Source: Solimonas sp. SE-A11 | Lineage (GTDB): Bacteria; Pseudomonadota; Gammaproteobacteria; Nevskiales; Nevskiaceae | Direction: 5' to 3' | Assembly (NCBI RefSeq): GCF_030345715.1 | Contig: NZ_JAUASX010000007.1 | Location: 1-64,000 of the forward strand | DNA length: 64,000 bases | Shown: positions 22,486 to 37,871 of the stretch, piece after piece | How the letters are laid out: the number at the start of each line of letters is the position of its first letter | Numbering within the stretch: the first letter of the stretch is position 1 | The notes under the pieces: model-generated | What the model was told of the DNA's origin: nothing | Databases searched by the model: none | Seen by the model: the letters and a program-made list of their open reading frames with translations, nothing else | Position numbers and translations under genes: made by a program

Positions 22486-24384
<1,899 letters not shown>

Positions 24385-24467
24385 GCGGATGATCACTCTG
24401 GATGGGCGCCCAAACTGCGGGCGCAATTCGCGGAATCGGAGATTTTAACAAAAATTTGTCAACCTGA

Positions 24468-26276
24468 CTAACTTTTTGCCACTCGACTCCAAAAGCCATC
24501 TGCCCCCTGAGTGACGCCCTTCTGCTTTTGCAGCAAAATACTGATTTCATTGGTTTCTGCAGCTGTAAGAGGGCGCAGGCGCTCCTCGTCGAAGAGCTGC
24601 TGAATTCGCGCTTTAATTACTTTCTGAGTCAGCTTGTCTAGGATCAGGCGCAGTTCCGGCTCAGGCCCCTTCTCCTGATCCACTGGGGCCTCGGCGCCCT
24701 GTTGCAGCAACTTTTCCACGCCCTTGCCCTTGGGGGTGCCCCGCCAGAGCTCCAGCAGGTGTGCCGCCGTGGCCTCGGGGTGGGCGTGGAAGAAGTCGAT
24801 GGCTTCCATCAGCACCTCGATGCCGGGCACCTCGGCCTGGGCCAGCAGCTCCAGGTTGTCGATGCGGTCGGCCAGGCGCGGGTCTTCCAGCAGCAGCTGC
24901 ATCACGCGCCGCACCGGGCGGTTGGCGTTGCCTGCGGGGCGGTGGCGGGTGGAAACCGGCTCCTCGCCCGGCATGCCGCCCGCGGGGCCGGCTTCGGCCG
25001 CCGCCGGCGCCTTGAGCATGGCCTCCAGGTCGGCACGCGGCACCCGCGTGAGGTTGGACAACTCGCCCAGCATCAGCACACGCAACGGCCCATCGCGCAG
25101 CTTCTCCAGGTGCGGGCGCGCCAGCGCGGCGAGCTTGGCACGGCCGTCCATGTTGCCCAGGTTCACCTGCTTGCCCAGCTCGCCGAACAGGAACTGCGAC
25201 AGGGTCTGGGCCTCGCCCACCAGGGCACGGAAGGCCTCGGCGCCGATCTGCTGTACCAGCGTGTCCGGATCGTGTCCATCGGGCAGGAACATGAAGACGC
25301 ACTCGCGCGTACCGTCGATCTCCGGCAGCACCTGTTCCAGCGCGCGCCAGGCCGCGGCGCGTCCGGCGCGGTCGCCGTCGAAGCAGAACACCACCTTGTT
25401 GGTAGCCTTGAACAGCAGGCCCAGGTGCTCGCGCGTGGTGGCGGTGCCGAGCGTGGCCACGGCCTCGGGCACGCCGTGCTGCGCCAGCATCACCACGTCC
25501 ATGTAGCCTTCCACCACCAGCAGGTAGGGCAGGTTGGACTTGGAGGACTGGCGCGCCTCGTAGAGGCCGTAGAGGTTGCGCCCCTTGTGGAACAGGGCGG
25601 TCTCGGGGGAGTTGAGGTACTTGGCCGGATCGTTGCCCAGGGTGCGGCCGCCAAAGCCGATGACCCGCCCGCGCGTGTCGCGGATGGGGAACATGATGCG
25701 GTTGCGGAAGCGGTCGTACACGCCGCCGCTGTCCTTCTGGATCAGCAGGCCGGCATCCACCGCGTGCTTCGGGTCCTGCAGGAACGTGGTCAGCGCATCC
25801 CAGGATTCCGGCGCAAAGCCGATGCCGAAGGTCTTGGCGGTCTCGCCGTTGACGCCGCGCTTCTTCAGGTAATCGATGGCCGGCTGCGCGCTGCGCAGCT
25901 GATCGCGGAAGAAGCGCTGCGCCGCCGCCAGGGCGTCCAGGGGGCCGTCCATCACCACGCGGTCGTTGCGCCCACCTTCGCGCGGCACTTCCACGCCGGC
26001 ACGCTGGGCCAGTTCCTCCACCGCCTCGACGAAGCTCAGGCGGTCGTACTCCATCAGGAAGCTGATGGCGGTGCCGTTCTTGCCGGAACTGAAGCAGAAG
26101 AACATCTGCTTCTGCGGCGAGACGAAGAAGGACGGCGACTTCTCGTTGGTGAAAGGCGAACGCGCCTTGTATTCCTTGCCCGCGCGCTTGAGATCCAGCC
26201 GCGCCCCGATGATCTCTACGATATCGGTACGAGCCAGGAGGTCGTGGATGAATGCTTCGGGAATGCGGCCGCTCAC
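24468..26276 (-). CDS. dnaG: DNA primase DnaG with a ligand-poor zinc-binding domain
   Basis: 602 residues, GTG start at 26276 preceded by TAGGTGG. DnaG makes RNA primers at the replication fork. The N-terminal domain aligns residue for residue with E. coli, but the zinc ligands Cys40, His43, Cys61, Cys64 read Ser40 (ARSPF), Thr43 (FTNEK), Cys61 (FFCF) and Ser64 (CFSSGKNG). Only one of four survives, so zinc binding is unlikely. The catalytic core is intact: LPYLLVVEGYMDVVMLAQHG and VFCFDGDRAGRAAAWRALE in the TOPRIM fold. A C-terminal DnaB-interacting helical domain follows. It is the only primase seen here and is in its standard place before rpoD, so it is probably the functional enzyme. Confidence 0.95.
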   Translation of the reverse strand: MSGRIPEAFIHDLLARTDIVEIIGARLDLKRAGKEYKARSPFTNEKSPSFFVSPQKQMFFCFSSGKNGTAISFLMEYDRLSFVEAVEELAQRAGVEVPREGGRNDRVVMDGPLDALAAAQRFFRDQLRSAQPAIDYLKKRGVNGETAKTFGIGFAPESWDALTTFLQDPKHAVDAGLLIQKDSGGVYDRFRNRIMFPIRDTRGRVIGFGGRTLGNDPAKYLNSPETALFHKGRNLYGLYEARQSSKSNLPYLLVVEGYMDVVMLAQHGVPEAVATLGTATTREHLGLLFKATNKVVFCFDGDRAGRAAAWRALEQVLPEIDGTRECVFMFLPDGHDPDTLVQQIGAEAFRALVGEAQTLSQFLFGELGKQVNLGNMDGRAKLAALARPHLEKLRDGPLRVLMLGELSNLTRVPRADLEAMLKAPAAAEAGPAGGMPGEEPVSTRHRPAGNANRPVRRVMQLLLEDPRLADRIDNLELLAQAEVPGIEVLMEAIDFFHAHPEATAAHLLELWRGTPKGKGVEKLLQQGAEAPVDQEKGPEPELRLILDKLTQKVIKARIQQLFDEERLRPLTAAETNEISILLQKQKGVTQGADGFWSRVAKS

Positions 26277-26320
26277 CCACCTATTCTAAAGGACCCGCCC
26301 GCCCGGGCTGCGGGCCAGAA

Positions 26321-26351
26321 AAAACCGGCCGGCGCACGGGGCGCCGGCCGG
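26321..26351 (-). terminator. Terminator upstream of dnaG
   Basis: Stem CCGGCCGGCGC / GCGCCGGCCGG with a 5-nt loop, followed on the minus strand by six T. It ends transcription of the Q/G-rich gene and insulates dnaG from the NHEJ genes. Confidence 0.88.
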
Positions 26352-26375
26352 CTCTCAGAGGGACTGCGCGAACGC

Positions 26376-26723
26376 TTAGCGGTTGTTTTCGCGGTCACGC
26401 TGCTGCGGGCTGCCCTGCTGGCCGCTGCGATCGGCCTGCTGGTTCTGCTGGCCGCTCTTCTGGCCCTGCTGACCCTGCTGGCCGCTGCGCTGGGCGTCCT
26501 GGTTCTGCTGGCCGCTGCGCTGCTGGCCGGACTGCTGGTTGCCCTGCTGGCTGGCCTGGTGACCCTGGCTGCCCTGCTGGCCGGAGGAGCGGTCGGTCTG
26601 GTGCTGCTGGCCCTGGTCGCTCTTCTGCGAGCCCGGCTGGTTCGGCTGGTTGCGCATCTGGGTGTCGTCCTGACGATCCTTCTGCTGGTTCTGCTGATCC
26701 GGACGCTGGTTCTGGTTAGCCAT
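26376..26723 (-). CDS. Gln/Gly/Asn/Asp-rich disordered small protein
   Basis: 115 residues with almost no hydrophobic amino acids: Gln, Gly, Ser, Asn, Asp and Arg make up nearly the whole chain. Repeating words are SGQQ, QQGQQ, NQQ and DRSGQQG. It starts MANQNQRPDQQN after a strong AGGAGG site (8-nt spacing), and a good terminator follows, so it is very likely expressed. No signal peptide or membrane segment. It resembles hydrophilin or stress-induced disordered proteins in composition only. It sits between ku and dnaG. A DNA-protective or desiccation role is a guess from the company it keeps. Confidence 0.72.
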   Translation of the reverse strand: MANQNQRPDQQNQQKDRQDDTQMRNQPNQPGSQKSDQGQQHQTDRSSGQQGSQGHQASQQGNQQSGQQRSGQQNQDAQRSGQQGQQGQKSGQQNQQADRSGQQGSPQQRDRENNR

Positions 26724-26805
26724 TCTCTAATCCTCCTGATGGGATGTGATTGCGGCCCCAGTGCTGGGGTGCGGGTTCTATGTCCCAAGAACCATGCCCC
26801 ATTGT

Positions 26806-26838
26806 CTGTCAATAAAATCAATGACTTGTAAAAGTTCC
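26806..26838 (-). promoter_or_regulatory. Possible sigma-E/AlgU-type promoter of the Q/G-rich gene
   Basis: GGAACTT (26832-26838, minus strand) is a perfect envelope-stress sigma -35 box. The -10 side, about 17 nt later, reads TATTGA and is a poor match to TCTGA/TCAAA. Alternatively TTGACA further down could serve sigma-70. Weak call. Confidence 0.3.
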
Positions 26839-26873
26839 GCGAGCAAACTGCAACAAACGCGCCTTGCGGCCGC

Positions 26874-27767
26874 TCATTTTGCGGCGCGGCGGCGGGCCAC
26901 CGGCTTCTTGCGCGGGGCCGCCTTGCGGGCCGGCTTACGCGCCACGGCCTTGCTCGCCGCCGGGGTACGGCGGCCCTGGTCCAGGCTTTTCTTCAGCAGC
27001 GACATGAAGTCGACCACGTTGGTGCTGGCCTGGTCGTGGCCCTCTTCCTCCGGCTCGGCGTTTTTGACCACGCGCTTCTTGCCGATGCGCGCCTGGATCA
27101 CCTTGTTGAGGCGCTCGCGAAACTCGTCCTTGTGCTGTTTCGGATTCCACCTGGCAGTCATGGATCTCACCAGTTGCTCCGCCATCTCCAGTTCCTTGGC
27201 GCTGATCCGGAAGCCCTTGGCGGCTTTCGCCGGGAAGGCATATTCGTCGGCGGGGACCAGTTCCTGCGGATAGCGCATCAGCATCAGAAGCAGGGCTTGC
27301 TCCTGCACCATCACCAGAGCGAGGTACTCGCGCGTGCGGATCACCACGCGGGCCAAGCCGGCCTTCTCCTGCTCGCGCAGGGTCTCGCGCAGCAGCACAT
27401 AGCCCTTCTCGGACTTGCGCGTGGGTACCAGGAAGTAGGGCTTCTCGAAGTACTGCGGCCCGATGGCCGCGACGTCGATGAAGGCCTCGATGTCGACCGA
27501 CTCCTTGCTCTCTGGCGCGGCCTTCTTCAGGTCTTCTTCCTCCAGCACCACATAGCTGCCCTTGTCGTACTCGTAGGCCTTGACCACGTCCTTCCAGGGC
27601 ACCTCCTCGCCGGTGTCGGCATTCACCCGCTCGTAGCGCACGCGCTTGTTGTCGCGCGAGTCCAGCAGGCGGAAGTGCAGGTCCACGCGGCGCTCGGCCG
27701 GCATCAGTTGCACCGGGATGTTGAGCAGCCCGAAGGAGATCGCGCCGGTCCAGATCGGTTTGGCCAT
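26874..27767 (-). CDS. ku: Ku homodimeric end-binding protein (NHEJ)
   Basis: 297 residues. The Ku core starts MAKPIWTGAISFGLLNIPVQL, with LLDSRDNKRVRYERVN and a long beta-barrel/arm region (YFEKPYFLVP, ALLLMLMRYPQELV). The C-terminal 50 residues are Lys/Arg/Ala/Pro-rich, the DNA-binding tail of longer bacterial Ku proteins. Ku rings double-strand DNA ends and recruits LigD. The gene starts 10 bp after the ligD stop codon with GAGGA before the ATG, so they form an operon in the order ligD-ku. Confidence 0.96.
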   Translation of the reverse strand: MAKPIWTGAISFGLLNIPVQLMPAERRVDLHFRLLDSRDNKRVRYERVNADTGEEVPWKDVVKAYEYDKGSYVVLEEEDLKKAAPESKESVDIEAFIDVAAIGPQYFEKPYFLVPTRKSEKGYVLLRETLREQEKAGLARVVIRTREYLALVMVQEQALLLMLMRYPQELVPADEYAFPAKAAKGFRISAKELEMAEQLVRSMTARWNPKQHKDEFRERLNKVIQARIGKKRVVKNAEPEEEGHDQASTNVVDFMSLLKKSLDQGRRTPAASKAVARKPARKAAPRKKPVARRRAAK

Positions 27768-27777
27768 GGTTTGGTCC

Positions 27778-30264
27778 TCAATGGATTTGCGGCAGGCGCT
27801 GCCGCAGTTCGCGGAAGCCCTCCCAGGGATCGCGGCCGGCGCGCTCGAGACGCCTGAGGCGCTGCCGCAGGTTGGCGTAGCCGAACTGGTCCGGCGATTT
27901 CAGGCGCGACAGTTCGTCCCAGCCCAGCGGCACCGCGGTCGGTGCACCGGGGCGGGCGCGCAAGGTGTACGAGGCCACGGCCGTCGCGCCGCGGCCGTTG
28001 CGCAGGTAGTCGATGTAGATGCGTCCCTTGCGGCGCGCCTTGGATGCGGTGGCGATGAATTCGTCCGGCTGCTCCTCGGCCAGCATCTGCGCCAGCGCGT
28101 GCGAGAAATTCTTCACCGTGTCCCAGCCCGCCTGCGGCTGTAGCGGCAGCACCACATGCAGGCCCTTGCCGCCGGAGCTGCGCACGAAGCTCTGCAGGCC
28201 GAGCTGCCCCAGGCGCTCGCGCAGCAGGCGCGCGGCGGCCACCACCCGGCGCCAGTCCACGCCCTCGCCAGGGTCGAGATCGAAGACCACGCGATCGGGA
28301 TGCTCGATGTCATCCACGGTGGCGCCCCAGGCATGCAGCTCCAGCACGCCCATCTGCACCATGCCGATGAGACCGTCGATGTCCTCGATCCAGAGATACG
28401 GCTCAACGCGCGCCTGGCGCACGCTATCCGGGAAGCCCGGCGTGGCGCGCTTCTGGAAGAAGCAGGCCTTGCCGGCACCGTCGGGGCAGCGCAGCAGCGC
28501 CAGCGGACGGCGCCGCAGCTCGGGGAGGATCCACGCCGAGATTTCCGAGTAGAAGTCCGCCAGCTGCTGCTTGGTGATGACGGGATCCTCGAAGAGATGG
28601 CGATCGGGGTGGGTAAGCTTCACGCCGGAATCGGGCGGCTCATGGGCCTTGCCGCCATGCCGCGTCCTGGTCTGCTTCACGCGGACTCCTCCCTGTGCGG
28701 GAACATGCGGAGCGCGGTCCGGCTCCTTGAGATCGGTGATCGACTTGTCGGCCCGCAAGCCCTTGAGGCTGGCCTGTCGCAGGAGGTTTTCGCCGGTGCG
28801 GCCGCGATGTTCCACCTCCAGCACCAGCGCGGGTTTCACCCACACGGGGCGCGCGCCGCGCAGGTCGGCGCGACTCGGCGGATTGAGCAGTTTCACTGCC
28901 TGCTTCGCCGGACGCATGCGCTTCAGCAGGTCCTCGATCAGCGCGGCGGTGAAGCCGCTGCCGACGCGGCCGACATAACGCCAGTCCTGGCCCGCGGGCT
29001 CGGCCAGCAGCAGCGCGCCCAGCTTTTCGCGCGAGCGCTGACCCCGCGTGTAGCCCACGATGGCGAACTCGTCGGCATCGACGCACTTGGTCTTCACCCA
29101 GGAACCGCCACGGCCCTCGCGGTAGGGCGCCTTGCGGTCCTTGCTGACGATGCCCTCCAGCCCGGCGCTGCAGGCGGCCTTGGCCGCCTTGGCACCATGG
29201 CCTTCCAGGTATTCGCTGAGGCGCAGACAATCGTCCGAGCCCTGCAGCAGTTTCTGGAGGGCCTGCTTGCGCAACTCCTGCGGCAAAGGCCGCCAGTCCT
29301 GGCCATCCAGGTGCAGCAGGTCAAACAGCATGGCCACGACATTTCCGGCGGCGTGGGGCTCCCCGAAGTCGCGCTGCAGCAGGTCGAAGCGGCTGCGGCC
29401 CTGTTCGTCCAGCACCACCACCTCGCCATCGAGAATGCAGTTCCTGCAGGGCAAGGCGAGCACGGCCTTCTTCAGCTGCGGCAGCTTCGCGCTCCACTCC
29501 AGGCCGCCGCGCGAGCGGATCTGCAGCCTGCGGCCGTTACGCATCAGCAACACGCGATAGCCGTCGTACTTCACCTCGTGCAGCCAGTTCTCGCCCTCGG
29601 GGGCCTTCTCGACCAGGCGCGCGAGCTGCAGGCCGACTTCAGCAGGGAACGCCGACCGGGAGGCCTTTGCCGGCTTGTTCGCGGCGGCCCTGCGCGGTGC
29701 CGCGGTCTCCTTCCACTGATCCAGCGGCGTGTCGTCGGCGATGTCGCCCTTCTTCACGTGCGCGTCGCTGCGCTTGAACAGCAGCCACTGCGGCCGCTTG
29801 CCCGACATGCTGGTGCGGATCAGCGACCAGTGGCCCTTCATGCGGCTGCCGAAGAGTTCGAAGTCCAGATGGCCTTTCTTCAGTGCCTTGGCCGCGTCGC
29901 CCTCCGGCGCCCAGCGGCCCTCGTCCCAGATCCATACCTCGCCGGCACCGTAGTGACCGTGCGGGATCGAGCCCTGGAAGCTGCCGTACTCCAGCGGGTG
30001 ATCCTCCACCTCCACCGCCAGGCGCTTCTGCTTCGGGTCCAGTGAGGGTCCCCTGGGCACGGCCCAGCTGCGCAGCGCGCCGCCCACCTGCAGACGAAAG
30101 TCGAAATGGCGGCGGCTGGCGTGGTGCAGCTGGATGACGAAACGGTCGCCGCGCACAGAGTCCACGGCCTTCGGTGCCGGCTCGGGCGTGGCCGTGAAGT
30201 CGCGGCGCTTGCGATAGACATCGAGGCGCTGGCGCGTGCTGCTGTAAGCGGTTGGAGGCGGCAT
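27778..30264 (-). CDS. ligD: LigD, three-domain ATP-dependent DNA ligase of NHEJ
   Basis: 828 residues from the ATG at 30264; a TTG further upstream (30339) would add 25 residues without family similarity. Domain order is phosphoesterase - ligase - polymerase, as in Pseudomonas. PE: FVIQLHHASRRHFDFRLQ and SIPHGHYGAGEVWIWDEG (about 45-115). Ligase: adenylated Lys in HEVKYDGYRVLLMRNG (about 225-240), EGIVSKDRKAPY. Polymerase: GFPDSVRQARVEPYLWIE, VFDLDPGEGVDW (metal Asp pair), FVRSSGGKGLHVVLPL. It processes, fills and seals broken DNA ends together with Ku. A terminator separates it from yqeY upstream. Confidence 0.96.
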   Translation of the reverse strand: MPPPTAYSSTRQRLDVYRKRRDFTATPEPAPKAVDSVRGDRFVIQLHHASRRHFDFRLQVGGALRSWAVPRGPSLDPKQKRLAVEVEDHPLEYGSFQGSIPHGHYGAGEVWIWDEGRWAPEGDAAKALKKGHLDFELFGSRMKGHWSLIRTSMSGKRPQWLLFKRSDAHVKKGDIADDTPLDQWKETAAPRRAAANKPAKASRSAFPAEVGLQLARLVEKAPEGENWLHEVKYDGYRVLLMRNGRRLQIRSRGGLEWSAKLPQLKKAVLALPCRNCILDGEVVVLDEQGRSRFDLLQRDFGEPHAAGNVVAMLFDLLHLDGQDWRPLPQELRKQALQKLLQGSDDCLRLSEYLEGHGAKAAKAACSAGLEGIVSKDRKAPYREGRGGSWVKTKCVDADEFAIVGYTRGQRSREKLGALLLAEPAGQDWRYVGRVGSGFTAALIEDLLKRMRPAKQAVKLLNPPSRADLRGARPVWVKPALVLEVEHRGRTGENLLRQASLKGLRADKSITDLKEPDRAPHVPAQGGVRVKQTRTRHGGKAHEPPDSGVKLTHPDRHLFEDPVITKQQLADFYSEISAWILPELRRRPLALLRCPDGAGKACFFQKRATPGFPDSVRQARVEPYLWIEDIDGLIGMVQMGVLELHAWGATVDDIEHPDRVVFDLDPGEGVDWRRVVAAARLLRERLGQLGLQSFVRSSGGKGLHVVLPLQPQAGWDTVKNFSHALAQMLAEEQPDEFIATASKARRKGRIYIDYLRNGRGATAVASYTLRARPGAPTAVPLGWDELSRLKSPDQFGYANLRQRLRRLERAGRDPWEGFRELRQRLPQIH

Positions 30265-30347
30265 CGGCGGTTCGCAGGGCGGAGATGACGCCTGCTGGCA
30301 ACCATTGTTCGTGCCGAGAGCCAGTCCCTTGGAAATCAAGGACCTGG

Positions 30348-30380
30348 AAAAGCAGAACGGCGCCTTATGCAGCGCCGTTC
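30348..30380 (-). terminator. Terminator between yqeY and ligD
   Basis: Stem GAACGGCGC / GCGCCGTTC with an 8-nt loop, then TGCTTTT on the minus strand. It makes the NHEJ genes a separate unit. Confidence 0.75.
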
Positions 30381-30405
30381 GGTTACAACAGTGCAGATTG
30401 CGGGA

Positions 30406-30852
30406 TCAGCCGAGCTTGGCTTTTACCAGCCCCGAGAGCTTGCCCATGTCCGTGCGCCCCTGGACCTTGGGCTTGAGCCAGCCGATCACCTTGCCCATGT
30501 CCTTGCCGCCCTGCGCCCCGGTCTCGGCGACGGCCTGGGCCAGCAGGGCATCGAGCTCTTCCGCCGTGAGCTGCTGCGGCAGGTACTCGGTGAGTACGCG
30601 GATTTCCTCGGCTTCCTTGTCGGCCAGTTCCGGCCGGTTGCCGGCACGGAACTGGGACTCGGAGTCGCGACGCTGCTTGAGCATCTTCTCGATCGCCGAG
30701 AGCACGACGGTGTCGGTCAGCTCAATGCTTTCCACCACTTCACGCTGCTTGAGCTCAGCGGTGAGCATGCGCAGCAGCATCAGGCGCGCCTTGTCACCGG
30801 CACGCATCGCCGTCTTGACGTCTTCACCGATGCGAGTCTTCAGGTCGGACAT
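30406..30852 (-). CDS. yqeY: GatB/YqeY-domain protein
   Basis: 148 residues from the ATG at 30852 (MSDLKTRIGEDVKTAMRAGD), the usual length (E. coli 147). It shows the YqeY signature LRMLTAELKQREV, ILTEYLPQQLTAEEL-type segment (here VLTEYLPQQLTAEEL) and the C-terminal GKVIGWLKPKVQGRTDMGKL. It is related to the tRNA-binding tail of GatB amidotransferase and may bind tRNA; its function is unproven. It is conserved between rpsU and dnaG in many gammaproteobacteria, as here after rpsU. Confidence 0.93.
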   Translation of the reverse strand: MSDLKTRIGEDVKTAMRAGDKARLMLLRMLTAELKQREVVESIELTDTVVLSAIEKMLKQRRDSESQFRAGNRPELADKEAEEIRVLTEYLPQQLTAEELDALLAQAVAETGAQGGKDMGKVIGWLKPKVQGRTDMGKLSGLVKAKLG

Positions 30853-30963
30853 AGCAAGATCAGCCAGGTGGAAACGGAATCGCTGGATTTTGAGCCCCGG
30901 GCCACGGGTGGCCCGGCTTTCTCCAGGGACGACGGTGGTCGGCCCCGGCCACCGCAAACGCCT

Positions 30964-31179
30964 TTAGAACAGGCGGATACGGCGGTTGGACTCGCGCTGG
31001 ACCTTCTTGGCCTGGCGCTTCACGGCGGCAGCGCGCTTGCGCTTGCGCTCCTGGCTCGGCTTCTCGAAGAACTCGTGCTTGCGCAGGTCGGTCAGCACGC
31101 CGGCCTTTTCGCAGGTGCGCTTGAAGCGGCGGATCGCAACTTCAAACGGTTCGTTATCGCGGACGCGGACAGAAGGCAT
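30964..31179 (-). CDS. rpsU: 30S ribosomal protein bS21
   Basis: 71 residues, the standard size, starting [20 protein letters not shown] and ending RIRLF. It is Lys/Arg-rich with the [13 protein letters not shown] helix. bS21 contacts the 3' end of 16S rRNA near the Shine-Dalgarno pairing site. It is first gene of the macromolecular-synthesis block and divergent from tsaD (118 bp apart), the conserved arrangement. Confidence 0.97.

Positions 31180-35591: not shown

Positions 35592-37871
<2,280 letters not shown>

Follow-up and report, generated by a model that had tools for sequence, protein, structure and literature searches.

The two genes of bacterial non-homologous end joining (NHEJ), ligD and ku, lie inside the macromolecular-synthesis block rpsU-yqeY-dnaG-rpoD of Solimonas sp. 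SE-A11, within the first 64,000 nucleotides of contig NZ_JAUASX010000007.1 (hereafter the window, i.e., the whole stretch of DNA that was analysed). We consider it highly probable that ligD-ku entered the yqeY-dnaG gap by insertion in an ancestor shared by the window species and Solimonas sp. BWSM_106, after a small glutamine-rich (Q-rich) gene had already been inserted there, and that the operon was assembled or moved within the gene pool of the family Nevskiaceae, with no distant donor. The yqeY-dnaG gap is approximately 4.1 kb in 2 of 53 family loci (the window and BWSM_106), 620 bp in one congener (G048) and 13–253 bp in the other 50. The locus is therefore, in our view, genuine and records the fairly recent gain or relocation of a standard NHEJ operon in one lineage.

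The order on the minus strand of the window is rpsU, yqeY, ligD, ku, the Q-rich gene, dnaG and rpoD; both the order and the coordinates agree with an initial annotation of the sequence, which had placed ligD-ku inside the block. The features are listed below.

31264-31236, minus strand: promoter-like site near rpsU, from the promoter scan
30964..31179, minus strand: rpsU (ribosomal protein S21); Pfam Ribosomal_S21
30406..30852, minus strand: yqeY, 148 aa; Pfam YqeY; identity 98.6% in BWSM_106 and 98.0% in G048
30355..30380, minus strand: hairpin 3' of yqeY, weak and terminator-like; 10-bp stem, broken U run
27778..30264, minus strand: ligD, PE-LIG-POL; Pfam, NCBIfam and PDB relatives; open reading frame (ORF) open from 30339
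26874..27767, minus strand: ku; Pfam Ku, TIGR02772 and PDB relatives
26785..26799, minus strand: element GGGCATGGTTCTTGG 5' of the Q-rich gene, conserved in three species
26731..26737, minus strand: AGGAGGA, likely ribosome-binding site of the Q-rich gene, read from the sequence; same in BWSM_106 and G048
26376..26723, minus strand: Q-rich gene, 115 aa; ORF of no known family
26319..26352, minus strand: strong terminator, hairpin and U run; aligns with the terminator directly 3' of yqeY in the congener G049
26283..26288, minus strand: TAGAAT box, 6 nt 5' of the dnaG GTG; putative leaderless-type promoter, from an offset count over 53 loci
24468..26276, minus strand: dnaG (primase); Pfam
22486..24426, minus strand: rpoD (sigma-70) ORF; Pfam

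The yqeY-dnaG gap among relatives

The family sample comprised 58 Nevskiaceae genomes of 12 genera, which were searched with DnaG as the query. DnaG matched in 55 genomes, and 54 loci were kept because G027 gave only weak dnaG-like matches; G022, G054 and G055 gave no dnaG match. Both yqeY and dnaG were visible in 53 loci, G002 being excluded as its contig stops before yqeY. The window genome (G000; 4.94 Mb in 41 contigs, window on contig C39), G048, G049 and BWSM_106 (G050; JASBRP010000041.1, ligD-ku locus on contig C9 of 58,985 bp) are the only members of genus g1 in the sample. Despite the Solimonas name of BWSM_106, g1 is a separate genus in the genome collection from g10, which holds S. 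soli (G041) and S. variicoloris (G047).

All 52 family loci that show rpsU, yqeY, dnaG and rpoD carry them in this order on one strand, and gaps of at most 253 bp span all 12 genera. The uninterrupted block that the initial annotation suggested looking for in relatives was found in 50 of the 53 loci. The same annotation had held that ligD-ku present here in all relatives, with vertical inheritance, would be an old, ordinary arrangement; this is not the case among the genomes examined, in which two of the 53 loci are filled. Using tblastn (E 1e-5), ligD or ku was found in no family dnaG locus except those of the window and BWSM_106, and ku matched in 16 of the 58 family genomes. In a class sample of 369 genomes, ku matched (E<=1e-10) in 30, the window counted, and 28 of the other 29 also matched DnaG. 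When ku and dnaG shared a contig (8/28), they were separated by at least 195 kb. In addition, we examined named LigD loci, taking the best 80 of 321 matches and leaving out four family loci; at the 76 loci outside the family, none of rpsU, yqeY, dnaG and rpoD matched in flanking sequence that reached at most 8 kb and was truncated by contig ends at 11 of the loci. Together, these surveys show ligD-ku at this position in only two of the species examined, and the literature searched held no report of such an arrangement. The genome-wide searches scored part of the first-look candidates in some genomes (e.g., 6/10; 40/886 in G049), so that the counts are lower bounds.

The gap contents follow the species tree. 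In a tree of DnaG, RpoD, YqeY and TsaD from 52 genomes (G002 and G010 are not in it), the genus resolved as (G049,(G048,(G050,G000))), with Shimodaira–Hasegawa-like approximate likelihood ratio test (SH-aLRT) values of 97 and 93. In G049, a strong terminator (z -4.96) stands approximately 30 nt past yqeY, and the dnaG box and dnaG come next. G048 has yqeY, a hairpin, the Q-rich gene, a terminator and dnaG, without ligD-ku; in the window genome and BWSM_106, ligD-ku additionally separates the hairpin from the Q-rich gene. The terminator that follows yqeY in G049 aligns with that 3' of the Q-rich gene, which places both insertion points downstream of yqeY and upstream of this old terminator. Similarity to G048 returns approximately 20 nt past the ku stop; therefore, the second insert is approximately 3.5 kb and holds ligD and ku only. 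Two separate insertions, the Q-rich gene and then ligD-ku, probably accumulated here. The Q-rich gene had been counted as part of the cassette, a membership contradicted by its presence in the same gap of G048 without ligD-ku.

Divergence at 4-fold sites between the window and BWSM_106 was 0.29 for ligD and 0.20 for ku, compared with 0.12 for rpoD, 0.14 for glyS, 0.15 for tsaD, 0.19 for folB, 0.28 for dnaG and 0.37 for gmhB (rpsU, 0 on 37 sites). Because ligD and ku fall inside the spread of their neighbours, the cassette was probably in place before the two species diverged, and its reading frames have been retained since; protein identity is 90% for LigD and 93% for Ku.

A mobile element or genomic island was considered and rejected, as no integrase, transposase, terminal repeat (within the repeats of at least 12 nt listed) or tRNA target was found at the insert. 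The window contains no tRNA, the insert holds no gene besides ligD and ku, and no edge repeat of at least 12 nt was found among the matches listed (20 of 44 direct and 25 of 32 inverted).

The inserted genes and their origin

Pfam domains above the cut-off were Ribosomal_S21, YqeY, LigD_N, DNA_ligase_A_M and A_C, LigD_Prim-Pol, Ku and the main DnaG and sigma-70 domains. The ligD ORF opens at 30339; however, the ATG at 30264 matches the starts of its relatives and is probably the true start. The ku gene begins 10 nt past the ligD stop. LigD has the domain order PE, LIG, POL and scored 630 bits against TIGR02776 (cut-off 373), with TIGR02777, TIGR02778 and TIGR02779 also above cut-off; against PRK05972 it scored 893.9, narrowly below the cut-off of 895. 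The motifs KYDGYR, DLDP and HFDFR are present and invariant across six family LigDs, and the DLDP and HxDFR positions align with PDB chains. We take these motifs to be the ligase lysine in K-x-DG, the DxD of POL and the His/Asp of PE. Ku is a single-domain protein of 297 aa (PF02735, 149.9 bits; TIGR02772, 292 bits, cut-off 150). The established functions of these families are the binding of double-strand DNA ends for Ku and the trimming, filling and sealing of such ends for LigD; by predicted function, the two proteins are a complete, ordinary bacterial NHEJ pair.

The Q-rich protein of 115 aa contains 36.5% Q and 12.2% G, has a grand average of hydropathy (GRAVY) of -2.54 and two residues from the VILMFYWC set, and matched no family in Pfam or NCBIfam. 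A Gly content above 6% together with strong hydrophilicity defines hydrophilins. The Q-rich protein has this composition, and we claim no membership on composition alone. The DNA pattern at the start of the gene, which was designed on this genus and is narrow as a test, was found in 3 of the 58 family genomes, all of one genus, and in 1 of the 369 class genomes, the window; a protein search matched 2/58 and missed the evident copy of G048, and is therefore no test of absence. Element GGGCATGGTTCTTGG upstream occurs just once in the genome when one mismatch is allowed, is kept in three species and was not picked up by the sigma-70 scan. We considered it as a sigma-54 promoter, the consensus of which has GG and GC 10 nt apart. 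The element reads GG-N10-GG and scores 12/16 against this consensus, the window has 18 sites scoring at least 14, and this candidate was set aside as unproven. The Q-rich gene is a unit separate from ligD-ku and was probably at the locus earlier.

In the LigD tree, the window and BWSM_106 grouped with a Hydrocarboniphaga metagenome-assembled genome (G007), G041, G047 and G038 (the last three of g10), beside the LigD of Oleiagrimonas. The LigD of G048 belonged to another lineage, with G029, G030, G025 and two copies from G006. A single LigD clade for the window, BWSM_106 and G048 was rejected (approximately unbiased test, p-AU 3.5e-7); that is, two deep LigD lineages exist among these genomes. 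In addition, the LigD of G007 joined g10 and not g1 (100/99), contrary to the species tree, a further hint of exchange within the family. The Ku of ten of these genomes formed one clade (97/97 in a 75-row tree; 81/90 in a 22-row tree), outside which lay the Ku of G003, G004, G005, G011 and G024. The Ku of the window and BWSM_106 stood beside that of G048 (97/83 and 62/74, respectively), and one clade for the Ku of the five ligD-ku genomes in the window's LigD lineage was rejected (p 9.8e-9). The Ku and LigD of G026 and the split LigD of G005 are absent from these trees, and L173 and L203, below the length limit, were dropped from the Ku tree. These results suggest that LigD was exchanged beside a family-type Ku; the exchange is well supported for LigD and likely for the pair.

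The initial annotation had noted that such genes are often transferred and proposed a comparison of codon usage and phylogeny with the flanking genes. The composition gave no foreign sign (GC3, i.e., GC at third codon positions, 0.88 for ligD, 0.90 for ku and 0.84–0.93 for neighbours), whereas the trees support exchange of LigD within the family. Transfer from afar found no support, the closest LigDs outside the genus being of the same family. Plasmid LigDs all stayed below 60% identity (best among the matches listed, 44%), and no plasmid covered 80% or more of the DNA stretch (28% in the best row).

In G048, a second sigma-54 gene forms a group with BON, PRC-barrel and DUF4142 genes that is bordered by ku and ligD, and in G030 ku is also near a second sigma-54 gene. 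In contrast, the sigma-54, PRC and DUF4142 genes of G000 and BWSM_106 stand at other places and have neither ku nor ligD with them, BON being matched in BWSM_106 only. G049 showed only short sigma-54-like pieces of such a group, with 40 of 886 candidates scored, so that its absence there is not firm. A move of ligD-ku out of a G048-type group was considered and rejected on evidence that is suggestive only: G000 and BWSM_106 retain part of the group with no ku or ligD, and the G048 proteins (tblastn, E up to 1) were unmatched in five stretches. The sigma-54/PRC-barrel/DUF4142 group occupies 2874-10861 in L063, 9231-11877 in L228 and 9703-13230 in L229.

Three other records call for separate mention. 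G006 (L122 and L123; genome contamination 9%) has its two second-lineage ligD copies plus a g10-like ku elsewhere. L150, titled Bacillus subtilis SK7B5, and L179 (Planctomycetota) have a Xanthomonad-type ligD, which looks likely to be contamination or mislabelling; the LigD of L150 nests among Stenotrophomonas.

Terminators and transcription of the locus

Terminator strength was assessed as a folding z score against 200 shuffles. The hairpin and U run at approximately 26319-26352 gave z -2.8, with 2/200 shuffles equally stable, whereas the hairpin after yqeY (30355-30380) gave z -1.4, with 17/200 equally stable, and may be leaky. Of the two terminators said to bound the cassette, the one 3' of the Q-rich gene was therefore upheld as strong, and the other is weak. 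G048 also has a GC hairpin at the position after yqeY, although the stretch as a whole is no more stable than its shuffled versions (z -0.8). A plain terminator scan of the window gave 10 sites against 7.6 expected; thus, scan matches alone carry little weight.

All four congeners have TAGAAT 6 nt 5' of the dnaG GTG. When the dnaG start was set as the ATG or GTG nearest the aligned start, TANANT occurred at -12 in 14 of the 53 loci (39 were without it), and any other offset occurred in at most two. The 14 loci, from several genera, are the window, L032, L033, L041, L045, L050, L053, L060-L062, L064, L067, L073 and L078. The two-hexamer sigma-70 scan did not list the dnaG box. Its position suggests a leaderless-type promoter of dnaG that would predate both insertions, and the 14 loci suggest that a leaderless dnaG transcript is conserved across several genera. 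The initial annotation had concluded that dnaG and rpoD, cut off by the cassette, probably use their own promoter. The promoter-like box favours such a promoter; its attribution to the insertion is not supported, as the box and a strong terminator are already present in the empty gap of G049. The terminator and the box together suggest that the block consists of two transcription units in this genus. Judged by the sequence, the insertion landed at a boundary that already existed.

We propose the following course of events. First to enter the gap would have been a small Q-rich gene, which has an upstream element and a ribosome-binding site of its own; the ligD-ku operon would then have followed in the ancestor shared by the window species and BWSM_106. 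This operon couples the family-wide Ku lineage with one of the two deep LigD lineages, so that it was probably assembled or moved within the family gene pool. Because both inserts lie upstream of the existing dnaG box, expression of dnaG-rpoD was probably untouched, and the insertion could be tolerated. Read-through from rpsU-yqeY into ligD-ku is possible, since yqeY is followed by no more than a weak hairpin and the strong terminator stands past the Q-rich gene. The scan listed no sigma-70-like promoter between yqeY and ligD, consensus scans being weak evidence. Near the block, a plus-strand ORF (35700-37871) divergent from glyS looks katG-like (catalase-peroxidase) by eye only.

Alternative explanations and comparison with known systems

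Several observations weigh against a recent insertion of a family-assembled operon. The left edge of the insert lacks an exact placement, and no mark of a mechanism is present. In 20 of the 28 class genomes, ku and dnaG lie on different contigs and could be near each other at contig ends. A strict rule (perfect stem, at least 4 T) gave a terminator in 7 of the 53 family gaps and missed even the imperfect stem of G049; thus, the claim of an old terminator holds for the genus, not the family. The Ku evidence is weaker than that of LigD: one clade of the same five Kus plus that of G006 was not rejected (p 0.053), and support for both the window–G048 pairing and the family clade drops in the 22-row tree. 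Finally, the stem that unites the window genome with BWSM_106 is short (0.012, support 93 by one measure only), which leaves room for an older insertion with later loss in G048. In its full form, this explanation has ligD-ku in the block since the genus ancestor or earlier and deleted in G048, G049 and others. The second, different ligD elsewhere in G048 makes replacement with loss possible; however, the short gaps in all 12 genera, the compact terminator and dnaG box of G049 and the restriction of tblastn matches to two loci make such an old arrangement rather improbable.

Arrival of the whole cassette from another family, e.g., on a plasmid, is less probable still. The available text of PMC7719229 describes plasmid-borne NHEJ genes elsewhere among bacteria, LigD matches 1410 plasmid records, part of the DNA stretch is matched by 479, and the family has two deep LigD lineages; however, the plasmid matches remain below the identity and cover given above, the nearest LigD rows are of the same family, the Ku is within the family clade and the composition is neighbour-like. 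The window comes from an assembly of many contigs, and an assembly or binning artefact might be suspected; the identical order in BWSM_106, with ordinary divergence on both sides, reduces this chance to almost nothing. Compatible with the insertion that we favour, ligD-ku may have been captured into the rpsU-yqeY transcript by read-through and thereby tied to growth. The weak hairpin after yqeY, the strong one only past the Q-rich gene, the co-directional genes and the lack of a listed sigma-70-like promoter before ligD agree with this capture, whereas ligD may have its own promoter missed by consensus scans, and the hairpin may suffice to stop transcription. We regard the capture as a tentative option, below even chances. 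Broader and clearly less likely is a scheme in which NHEJ evolves by parts in the family, with Ku kept, LigD swapped and the operon wired into the rpsU-yqeY transcript, so that growth-linked end joining would stand against a possibly stress-linked form with ku adjacent to sigma-54.

The insertion that we favour involves the same two proteins and three LigD domains as known bacterial NHEJ. LigD is close to the solved pieces of Pseudomonas aeruginosa LigD (PDB 2fao, 2lj6 and 3n9b, presumably its POL and PE domains), and S. soli and S. variicoloris also have ligD and then ku a few nt apart. The window differs from this system only in place. The NHEJ genes beside the second sigma-54 gene in G048 and G030 encode Ku of the same clade as that of the window; ku and ligD flank the sigma-54 group in G048, whereas the group in G000 and BWSM_106 stands without them. 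Compared with the macromolecular synthesis operon rpsU-dnaG-rpoD, the window keeps the core genes and their order and carries three more genes in the yqeY-dnaG gap, contributed by two insertions. The available text of PMC2824700, citing a 1993 paper, records that many Gram-negative bacteria have a terminator between rpsU and dnaG. The position of the inserts between yqeY and its terminator, with the dnaG box untouched, suggests a reason for the tolerance of the block in this genus. The patchy presence of ku (16/58 family and 30/369 class genomes) resembles that in the gain and loss survey PMC7719229, the available text of which marks no chromosomal NHEJ as acquired by composition. Patchy bacterial NHEJ was thus known already, and the genes are standard and no new kind of system. 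In contrast to that survey, the empty, half-filled and filled sites of sister species place a chromosomal NHEJ change on one branch where composition is silent, and the locus offers a clean case of insertion.

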